Below are positions 8,553 to 33,171 of a DNA stretch of 64,000 bases, piece by piece. The DNA is taken from positions 186,001-250,000 of the forward strand of contig NZ_WHOL01000107.1 of assembly GCF_009745975.1 (NCBI RefSeq), written 5' to 3'. The notes under the pieces were generated by a model. It ran no database searches. It was not told the DNA's origin and saw only the letters and a list, made by a program, of their open reading frames with translations. Both the position numbers and the translations under genes were made by a program. The DNA comes from Actinokineospora pegani. Lineage in GTDB: Bacteria; Actinomycetota; Actinomycetes; Mycobacteriales; Pseudonocardiaceae. The stretch's first letter is position 1. Every line of letters begins with the position of its first letter.

Positions 8553-8660
8553 CGCCAGCTCCTCGTTGTGAAAGGATTTCCACAAGCGTGGTCTGTTGGC
8601 GGGCGAGCGACAAGAGGGCGAATGGCGGAGTCGATCACCAGCGATCACAGTTGGACATGA

Positions 8661-8742
8661 CCACGCCGACGTCGCGCCCACCTCGGTGCCCACCTGGGTG
8701 TGCCAGTTGGGCGGCTCTGGGGTGCGCGCGACGTCGGCGTGG
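8661..8742 (-). terminator. long hairpin, possible terminator
   Basis: A perfect 17-bp inverted repeat (8661-8677 with 8726-8742, core GCCGACGTCG) encloses a 48-base loop. It lies between the SRPBCC gene stop and the next minus-strand gene, where a terminator is expected. No T-run follows, so a regulatory or recombination role is not excluded. Confidence 0.45.
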
Positions 8743-8777
8743 CTTCTCGCCCACCCGGGGGTGTGGCGACGTGGCCG

Positions 8778-31316: not shown

Positions 31317-32084
31317 ATGGCGGAGCAGCCGCACGACCCCGCACACCTCGACCCCGTCCTGGTGGTGATCCCGACCTACAACGAGCGGGAGAACCTCGGG
31401 GTCATCGTCACCCGGCTGCACGCCGCCCTGCCCCAGGCGCACGCCCTCGTCGTCGACGACGGCAGCCCCGACGGCACCGGCGACCTCGCCGACGAGATGG
31501 CCGCCGCCGACGAGCGCGTGCACGTGCTGCACCGCACCGAGAAGGCCGGGCTCGGCGCCGCCTACCTCGCCGGGTTCACCTGGGCCCTGGAACGCGAGTA
31601 CGCCGTCATCGTCGAGATGGACGCCGACGGGTCCCACGCCCCCGAGGACCTGCCCCGGATGCTCGACGCCCTCACCGACGCCGACCTGGTCCTGGGGTCG
31701 CGGTACGTGCCCGGCGGCAAGACCGTCAACTGGCCGCTGCGCCGCCAACTGCTCTCCCGCGGCGGCAACGTGTACTCCAAGCTCGCCCTCGGCGCCAAGG
31801 TCAACGACATCACCGGCGGCTACCGGGCCTTCCGCCGCGCCGTGCTCGAGAAGCTCAAGCTCGGCAACGTCGCCTCCCAGGGGTACTGCTTCCAGGTCGA
31901 CCTCGCCTGGCGCACCATCGAGGCCGGGTTCACCGTCGTCGAGGTGCCCATCACCTTCACCGAGCGCGAGATCGGCGTGTCGAAGATGAGCGGCAACATC
32001 GTCCGCGAGGCGCTGTGGCGGGTCACCAAGTGGGGCCTGCGCCGCCGCGGCAACCAGGTCAAGGCCCTGCTGCGGATCAAGTAG
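31317..32084 (+). CDS. ppm1: polyprenol-phosphate mannosyltransferase
   Basis: The 255-residue GT2-family enzyme has [16 protein letters not shown], the nucleotide-binding [10 protein letters not shown], the metal-binding VEMDADGSH and the conserved GGYRAFRR and [13 protein letters not shown] segments of dolichol/polyprenol-phosphate mannose synthases. It transfers mannose from GDP-mannose to polyprenyl phosphate, supplying glycolipid and protein mannosylation. An AGGAGGAGAA ribosome site precedes the ATG. It is 62 bases after lnt and surely in the same operon. Confidence 0.92.
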
Positions 32085-32094
32085 GGTCGCGGCG

Positions 32095-32484
32095 GTGGGC
32101 GCCAGGCAGTACACCGGCTCGCCGGAGGACGCCGACATCCGCCGCGCCGACTCGCTGGCCAGGGAGATCTTCTCCGACGTGGCCAACAAGTGGGCGCTGC
32201 TGATCATCGAGACCCTCGGCGGGCGCACCCTGCGGTTCAGCGGACTGCGCGACGAGGTCCAGGGCATCAGCCACAAGATGCTCACCCAGAACCTGCGCAT
32301 GCTCGAGCGCAACGGGCTGGTCCGGCGCACCGTGCACCCCACCGTCCCGCCCCGCGTCGAGTACGCCCTCACCGAACCCGGGCACGGCCTGCGCGCCACC
32401 ATCGACCTCATGTGCGGGTGGACCCACGACAACATCGCCCACATCGAGGCCTCCCGCCGCCACTTCGACACCGGGCGCGGCTAG
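32095..32484 (+). CDS. HxlR-family winged-helix regulator
   Basis: The 129-residue protein has the HxlR winged helix (NKWALLIIETLGGRTLRFSGLRDEVQGISHKMLTQNLRMLERNGLVRRTVHPTVPPRVEYALTEPG, about residues 28-95). Such proteins respond to aldehydes, quinones or redox state. The GTG start is 11 bases after ppm1. Its TAG stop lies inside the CTAG at the left end of a MITE-like element, so the original 3' end may have been slightly different. It is convergent with a RidA-family gene. Confidence 0.85.
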   Translation: MGARQYTGSPEDADIRRADSLAREIFSDVANKWALLIIETLGGRTLRFSGLRDEVQGISHKMLTQNLRMLERNGLVRRTVHPTVPPRVEYALTEPGHGLRATIDLMCGWTHDNIAHIEASRRHFDTGRG

Positions 32485-32587
32485 GTCGTGTTTCGAAAGC
32501 CCGTGTTCGCGACAGCCGCGCCGGATGCGGCCAGGAACCACCCCGATCACGACTCTCATCGAACGAGACTTCCGAAACACGACCTAG
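32481..32587. mobile_element. 107-bp MITE-like element with terminal inverted repeats
   Basis: The ends are inverted copies: CTAGGTCGTGTTTCGAAAG at the left, and the right end read on the minus strand is CTAGGTCGTGTTTCGGAAG, one mismatch in 19. CTAG at both tips fits a 4-bp target duplication as made by IS5-family transposases. The inner 65 bases code for nothing obvious, so it is non-autonomous. The CTAG copies hold the TAG stop codons of both flanking convergent genes. Confidence 0.7.
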
Positions 32588-32991
32588 TCCAGCACCGCGA
32601 CGACCTCCAACTCCACCAGGTGCTCGGGCACATCCAGGGCGGGTGTGCCGAACAACGACGCGGGCGGCGTCGTCGTGGCGCCCACCGCCGCCCTGCCCCG
32701 GGCGATCCCCTCCGCCACCACCGACATCATCGCGGGCTCGTACCGCACCACGTGGAAGGTCAACCGGACCGCGTCGTCGAACGTCGCCCCCACCGACGCC
32801 AACGCCGTCGCCGCGTTGCGGTAGACCTGCTCCACCTGCGCGGCCAGGTCACCCACGTGCAGGTGCGCCCCGTCGGCGTCCCACGACACCTGACCGGCCA
32901 CGTGCACCGTGCGCGACCCCGTCGACACCGACACCTGGTGGTACAGGTCGCTCTCGGGAAGCCCTCGCGGGTTCACCAGCGTCACAGCCAT
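32584..32991 (-). CDS. RidA/YjgF-family protein
   Basis: The 135-residue protein has the Rid fold: YHQVSVSTGSRTVHVAGQVSWDADG, QVEQVYRNAATALASVGATFDDAVRLTFHVV and the C-terminal PALDVPEHLVELEVVAVLD. RidA proteins hydrolyse reactive enamine/imine intermediates. The canonical active-site Arg region (normally SRS or R-x-x-V-E-V near the end) reads LVELEVVAV here, so the activity may differ (Rid2-7 type). The stop codon lies in the CTAG end of the MITE-like element. The region upstream holds GGTTA-CTGGA-TAACC (33016-33030), a possible control site. Confidence 0.8.
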   Translation of the reverse strand: MAVTLVNPRGLPESDLYHQVSVSTGSRTVHVAGQVSWDADGAHLHVGDLAAQVEQVYRNAATALASVGATFDDAVRLTFHVVRYEPAMMSVVAEGIARGRAAVGATTTPPASLFGTPALDVPEHLVELEVVAVLD

Positions 32992-33171
32992 GATCCTGCC
33001 CTCTACTCTCTTCCGGTTACTGGATAACCGTAGGAGAGCGAGCAGGTCGGGCGGAAGGACGCACTTTCCAGTGACTGGGGAACCCGCCGGTTACCCAGCA
33101 GCTCCAGCCACCCGCCACACCTCGCGGATGTGGCCGCCGACACGGCGACCCGGAGCGCCCCCGGACGTGGA

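Follow-up and report, generated by a model that had tools for sequence, protein, structure and literature searches.

A CTAG-tipped MITE at the junction of convergent HxlR and RidA genes in Actinokineospora pegani

IS870 of Agrobacterium reportedly needs CTAG as its target and is said to obtain from that target the stop codon of its own ORF. MITEPsy1 of Pseudomonas syringae is a CTAG-targeting MITE whose ends, according to the accessible part of its description, resemble those of a full IS, ISPsy2 (PMC3189936). Further bacterial repeats, ERIC/IRU, Correia/NEMIS and RUP, are portrayed in the available part of a second source as non-autonomous elements of 100-200 bp that have TA tips and yield transcripts with long stem-loops, and RUP is thought there to be mobilised by an IS with matching ends (PMC2229807). 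Finally, convergent genes that overlap by 4 bp, at CTAG, TTAA, CTAA or TTAG, have been described, again as far as the part of the paper at hand goes (PMC2174442).

The locus reported here lies in a window of 64,000 nucleotides, by which we mean the whole stretch of DNA that was analysed. We think it very likely that a non-autonomous IS5-type MITE inserted at this locus into a CTAG that ended both of the convergent genes, HxlR and RidA, and that both stops survived the event. In our model, the TAG codons of HxlR and RidA would ancestrally have stood in one CTAG, giving a tail-to-tail overlap of 4 bp. An IS5-family transposase with a preference for CTAG, of the kind suggested by the elements of relatives, would act on the inverted ends in trans, with duplication of TA or CTAG upon insertion. 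Duplication of the palindromic CTAG would leave an intact stop for each gene and undo the overlap while neither protein changed. The one-strand hairpin inside the element would be kept by selection, either for spread of the element or for use by the host.

The element and its copies

The element occupies positions 32,481-32,587 of the window (107 bp) and is bounded by terminal inverted repeats of 19 nt, the left one at 32,481-32,499 on the + strand (CTAGGTCGTGTTTCGAAAG) and the right one at 32,569-32,587 on the - strand (CTAGGTCGTGTTTCGGAAG, read inwards), each of which includes a CTAG at its tip. The sequence-only reading had described a 107-bp segment with 19-bp inverted ends and CTAG tips, and this description stands, with one mismatch between the ends. 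The ends were supported by end searches and shuffles; an 18-nt end occurs twice in the window, both times as an end of the element, and not once in 100 shuffles of the window, at up to three mismatches. The left CTAG (32,481-32,484) carries the stop of the HxlR-type regulator gene (32,095-32,484, + strand, TAG at 32,482-32,484; product matching PF01638, E 7.7e-26), and the right CTAG (32,584-32,587) carries the stop of the convergent RidA-like (Ribonuc_L-PSP) gene (32,584-32,991, - strand, TAG on that strand at 32,584-32,586; product matching PF01042, E 1.1e-13), so that the earlier placement of the two stops in the two tips is confirmed by the coordinates. The two CTAGs would represent the two copies of the target, and CTAG, which flanks the element on both sides, also stands in the empty sites of relatives. 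Elsewhere in the window, a second near-perfect hairpin at 8,657-8,745 (MFE -71.6 kcal/mol, z -6.6 for 8,650-8,752) matches the element model weakly (E 4.6e-4) and is without the element ends.

When the segment was searched against the own genome assembly (128 contigs, 6.44 Mb), at least 61 match pieces were returned, with 40 of 121 candidates scored, and these fall at about 40 distinct places as counted among the matches listed; the 19-nt end gave 63 matches and its reversed control none. The element is thus multicopy and MITE-like, as had been proposed from the letters alone, and the opposite case named at the time, a segment without further copies that distant relatives have at the same position, is excluded by its copies and by its absence from the junction in relatives. 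Copies with two ends number 36 and range in length from 38 to 170 bp, a set that leaves out copies cut by contig ends or having one end only. Many copies measure 145-170 bp and contain an added apical palindrome of about 60 bp, which the window copy is without. Like other bacterial MITEs, the element is short (about 50-500 bp being the usual range), non-coding, multicopy and flanked by terminal inverted repeats, and the presence of relatives without it at the same site speaks for its mobility. The left flank of one copy (L057) was found at 100% identity in two contigs, C47 (37,942-38,153) and C88 (416-726), so that either one copy appears at two contig ends or the stretch is duplicated.

Beyond the own genome, the end pattern was matched in five of 150 genomes of the family, the own genome included, and in at least two of 394 genomes of the class (the own genome and G013), where G079 is not among the matches listed though it carries such ends. 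Viral contigs gave only two chance matches to the end pattern, and plasmids and phages gave no match to a long copy. Elements with the same inner sequence and different ends occur in relatives, both congeners and, with G079 and G106, members of a further genus in the family. In one relative, G012 (L318-L325), the same MITE core stands between several kinds of ends, some with TAA on both sides and others tipped CTAG. G079, of the other genus, has 48 matches to a close end sequence, CTAGGTCGTGTTTCGAATG (L112-L128), and at one of its copies (L115) the flanking gene on each side appears to stop in the CTAG of the element. Five contigs of G013 (C105, C169, C186, C195 and C244) break off within the element close to its apical palindrome, which looks as though assembly had failed at the hairpin. 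A covariance model (R1) recovers the window copy; over 800 kb of the own genome it gave four strong copies and some weak matches, and on 80 RidA loci of other organisms weak matches only, the best at E 0.001.

Ends, target duplication and a likely parent

An origin from the IS5 family had also been claimed from the sequence, together with the suggestion to look for a full transposon with the same ends. The first part is plausible in view of IS5-family elements tipped CTAGG in the genus; the second has no counterpart in the own genome, where searches of the 128-contig assembly found no intact IS5-family element with ends GGTCGTGTTTCGAAAG and no match to the PF13586 transposase. PF13586 transposases are present in eight of 16 genomes of the genus, and several IS5-family elements of the genus are 944-967 bp long and tipped CTAGG. 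That of G004, the one analysed, contains a pair of overlapping ORFs with matches to NF033580 (IS5 family) and to PF13340 plus PF13586. The end of the sister MITE in G004 is identical to the end of that genome's IS5 element (18 of 18 nt), and a MITE end of G012 agrees with an IS end from G002 at 17 of 18 nt; the ends of the own-genome copies, as tested for L058, agree with IS5-family ends at 13 of 18 nt at best. Taken together, these end sequences make an IS5-type parent transposon likely.

Among the transposases resident in the own genome, two groups were considered as parents and rejected. Elements with PF01609 (10 matches) have ends CTAGATGAGTGATTCCGTG or ends unlike those of the MITE, some of them being also tipped CTAG or located in CTAG sites. 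Elements with PF13358 (IS630-type; four matches) include none with such ends, so that the element does not share its ends with a resident IS630 element as an IS630/Tc1-type MITE does. An IS630 origin had been hinted at by tip bases that vary on the outer and are constant on the inner side, and was set aside in favour of the genus IS5-family elements tipped CTAGG. A separate multicopy element of the own genome (L102-L107, on contigs C81, C82, C86, C88 and C117), with a 318-aa DDE_Tnp_1 ORF and terminal sequences equal or close to CTAGATGAGTGATTCCGTG, is likewise found in CTAG sites and is located at contig ends.

The tip bases bear on the size of the target duplication. In the 36 copies, the inner base flanking the TA is constant at 72 of 72 ends and the outer base differs at seven of 72. 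We therefore lean towards a duplication of TA (2 bp) rather than of CTAG (4 bp), two outcomes that look alike at CTAG targets.

Age of the stop codons and siting of the copies

Scanning the RidA protein against bacterial and archaeal genomes yielded 80 loci, 14 of which have a convergent HxlR gene downstream as in the window, with HxlR proteins that are 66-80% identical. At five of these 14 loci (L150, L154, L157, L160 and L180), in Micromonospora thermarum, Paractinoplanes deccanensis, Antribacter soli, Paractinoplanes atraurantiacus and Micromonospora mirobrigensis, one CTAG is common to both stops and holds no insert. The other nine comprise one with a TTAA overlap in the same role, two in which the genes abut at TGA/TCA and six in which they are spaced, and the element is missing at this junction in the other actinomycetes examined. 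The RidA protein ends at the same residue position in all 14 convergent relatives, and the HxlR C-termini differ among them. Because CTAG is its own reverse complement and reads TAG on each strand, its duplication leaves each gene its stop. The shared CTAG without an insert, together with the constant end of RidA, argues that both stops are most likely older than the insertion.

Joined flanks of seven further copies were searched in 16 genomes of the genus, and most of these empty sites agree. The empty site of L057 is one CTAG that provides the stop of both convergent genes in G002 and G006; the copy's own left tip is TTAG, although the empty site of the relatives is CTAG, so that tips also mutate. 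The CTAG stop at L066, which follows the der gene, occupies the same codon in G002 and G011, the right-hand CTAG stop at L064 is already present in G014, G003, G008 and G005, and the left stop at L058 is found at the same codon, as CTAA, in G003 and G005. The exception is L042, where the left gene is a few codons longer in G004, G013, G010 and G011, suggesting that its left stop may be young and that not every stop is old. The L040 copies were seen in no aligned stretch of a relative, where the intergenic sequence could not be aligned to the base, and the flanks of L062 and L047 gave no usable match spanning the junction among the 16 genomes. Where a Pfam family was found, the domains of flanking genes (SpoIIE, STAS, peptidase M24, AraC-type HTH, MazG-like, sigma-70, MOSC and EngA KH) reach near the C-terminus, and those at two-stop copies other than the one in the window extend to their expected ends; in one set checked, three of 10 flanking proteins were without any Pfam family.

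These comparisons bear on the proposal of the sequence-only reading that the insertion reset both 3' ends. By that account, the element entered at or next to the 3' ends of HxlR and RidA and made each gene shorter or longer, the CTAG tips of the element now serving as stops. Both stops do fall in the tips, the HxlR C-termini are variable among relatives, and the longer left gene of relatives at L042 may illustrate such a change. All of this is outweighed by the common RidA end in the 14 relatives, by the five insert-free shared CTAGs and by the old CTAG stops at the empty sites of other copies, and we regard new stops at this junction as very unlikely. The comparison of C-termini with element-free relatives, which had been suggested along with the proposal, contradicts a reset for RidA and finds HxlR variable. 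We conclude that the 3' ends of HxlR and RidA are kept, not reset, at an element that is real, mobile and IS5-like; from the sequences of relatives, neither stop was, most likely, created by the insertion.

The siting of the other copies was assessed with gene calls from a home-made codon-usage score, trained on 152 long ORFs, rather than from a standard caller. By these calls, seven of the 36 copies lie on two stops, 19 on one, eight are intergenic without a stop and two are inside called genes; after joining of the flanks, the same copies divide into seven, 16, seven and six. The comparison set consisted of 220 element-free CTAG sites from 800 kb of the own genome, left after 18 of 238 sites had been dropped as parts of elements or IS ends, and included seven two-stop, 44 one-stop, 130 intergenic and 39 genic sites. 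Copies are thus on a stop more often than CTAG sites are (26/36 versus 51/220, Fisher 1.9e-8; 23/36 versus 51/220 with flanks joined, Fisher 3.9e-6), and they occupy two-stop positions in seven of 36 cases as compared with seven of 220. CTAG is scarce within genes, which contain 39 of the 220 sites though called genes make up 86% of the sequence. Being rare in genes and common at gene ends, CTAG is a target that spares genes and makes insertion nearly harmless. That stops are favoured further over other intergenic sites could reflect loss of insertions in promoters or a finer target preference.

The inner hairpin and comparison with known systems

Between the terminal repeats lie the arms of an inner hairpin (32,500-32,568, - strand), which are kept between species. 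The window copy folds better on the - strand (-71.3 kcal/mol, z -9.1) than on the + strand (-44.6 kcal/mol, z -5.1), and once copies had been oriented by motifs of the inner part, the strand complementary to that of the window was the better folding one in 58 of 59 (36 own copies and 23 others). The hairpin was aligned over 22 copies from 10 genomes in two genera, using four of the 16 long own copies; five of the 20 copies read from relatives (L322, L327, L329, L331 and L334), whose ends were not cleanly found, were left out of the alignment and of the strand-fold comparison. The consensus hairpin has 64 pairs, 36 of which show changes on both sides that preserve pairing, and 96.7% of cells in the alignment are paired, as compared with 81.7% after shuffling and 38-47% after sliding. 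Palindromic ends could covary for transposase binding alone; 21 of the pairs changed on both sides fall in the inner helix and go beyond that. Among mainly Watson-Crick pairs, imperfections on the chosen strand are G-U in 99 cases versus A-C in nine, a contrast that a structure predicted on that strand favours somewhat, and 10 pairs are mainly G-U while none is mainly A-C. These compensatory changes and the G-U imperfections on one strand suggest selection for a one-strand hairpin, which may act as RNA or as single-stranded DNA.

A mutational effect, for example deamination of C on one strand of an extruded palindrome, might produce a one-strand signal in place of selection for pairing. It would fit the asymmetric changes, which are mostly C>T on the chosen strand, and the A-T pairs, in which the preference for a strand is weak (A>G 11, T>C 6). 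In the G-C pairs of the 16 long own copies, C>T outnumbers G>A by 16 to 0, but unpaired sites are without this bias (C>T 2, G>A 7), a difference (Fisher 7.5e-5) that counts copies rather than independent events. With each variant counted once over the 22 rows, the preference is weaker (C>T 10 and G>A 2 in G-C pairs, three and three at unpaired sites). As pairing has moreover been preserved by changes on both sides in over half of the consensus pairs, we consider a purely mutational origin unlikely and favour selection on the hairpin.

The hairpin is strong, and copies are enriched at gene ends relative to intergenic CTAG sites, which invites the idea of a bidirectional transcription terminator that benefits the host and for which gene-end copies are retained. 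A search of 32,050-33,050 for an intrinsic terminator (a GC-rich stem followed by a run of T) gave no match, there being no U-tract, and the element has not been kept at the HxlR-RidA junction in relatives. The genes that end at single-stop copies are on the top strand in 11 cases and on the bottom strand in seven, with one ambiguous copy omitted; the orientation is thus unbiased, and a role in readthrough RNA gains no support from this split. Because CTAG targeting and the loss of harmful insertions largely explain the positions, we judge a terminator quite unlikely as the reason for them. A sigma-70 promoter scan found nothing, and Rfam gave no match at or above the gathering score, the matches below threshold being mostly microRNA-hairpin-like.

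We speculate, as a possibility that we would not yet call probable, that what is inherited is essentially the inner hairpin, as an RNA or single-stranded DNA of one strand, and that it persists by swapping its ends to match the IS5-type transposase present in the genome, be its target CTAG or TNA, with insertion into a shared stop remaining invisible to the host thanks to the choice of CTAG. If the hairpin core is truly kept while ends are exchanged, such MITEs would be more than decayed transposons, in that they would transmit a structure under selection. Where the target is a palindrome with a stop on both strands, its duplication changes no protein, even if two genes share it; this offers a mobile element a simple form of harmlessness, and convergent genes that overlap a way of coming apart. 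Two features seem to us worth following: an insertion at a shared CTAG that leaves both stops intact, and a one-strand hairpin that is conserved while the ends around it change. Among the matches listed in a search of the open-licence literature, no title concerned MITEs in the shared stops of convergent genes or a MITE core that changes its ends.

In IS870 the stop serves the IS's own ORF, whereas the stops at the present element are those of two host genes. Likened by description rather than by sequence, our element resembles MITEPsy1 and ISPsy2 in that the ends of the MITE resemble those of an IS; as compared with what the accessible part of that report describes, siting at stop codons, the one-strand hairpin and ends that differ between species are features of the present element (PMC3189936). 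ERIC/IRU, Correia/NEMIS and RUP, as portrayed in the available part of their source (PMC2229807) and again compared by description, not sequence, differ from our element, which has CTAG as its target, a core common to differing IS5-like ends and G-U pairs biased to one strand. The 4-bp overlaps of convergent genes correspond to the empty target site of the present element, and the part of that paper at hand does not discuss insertions into the overlap (PMC2174442). Thus the kind of element is already known, and what is new in comparison is an inner hairpin that has been kept in 10 genomes of two genera despite differing ends.
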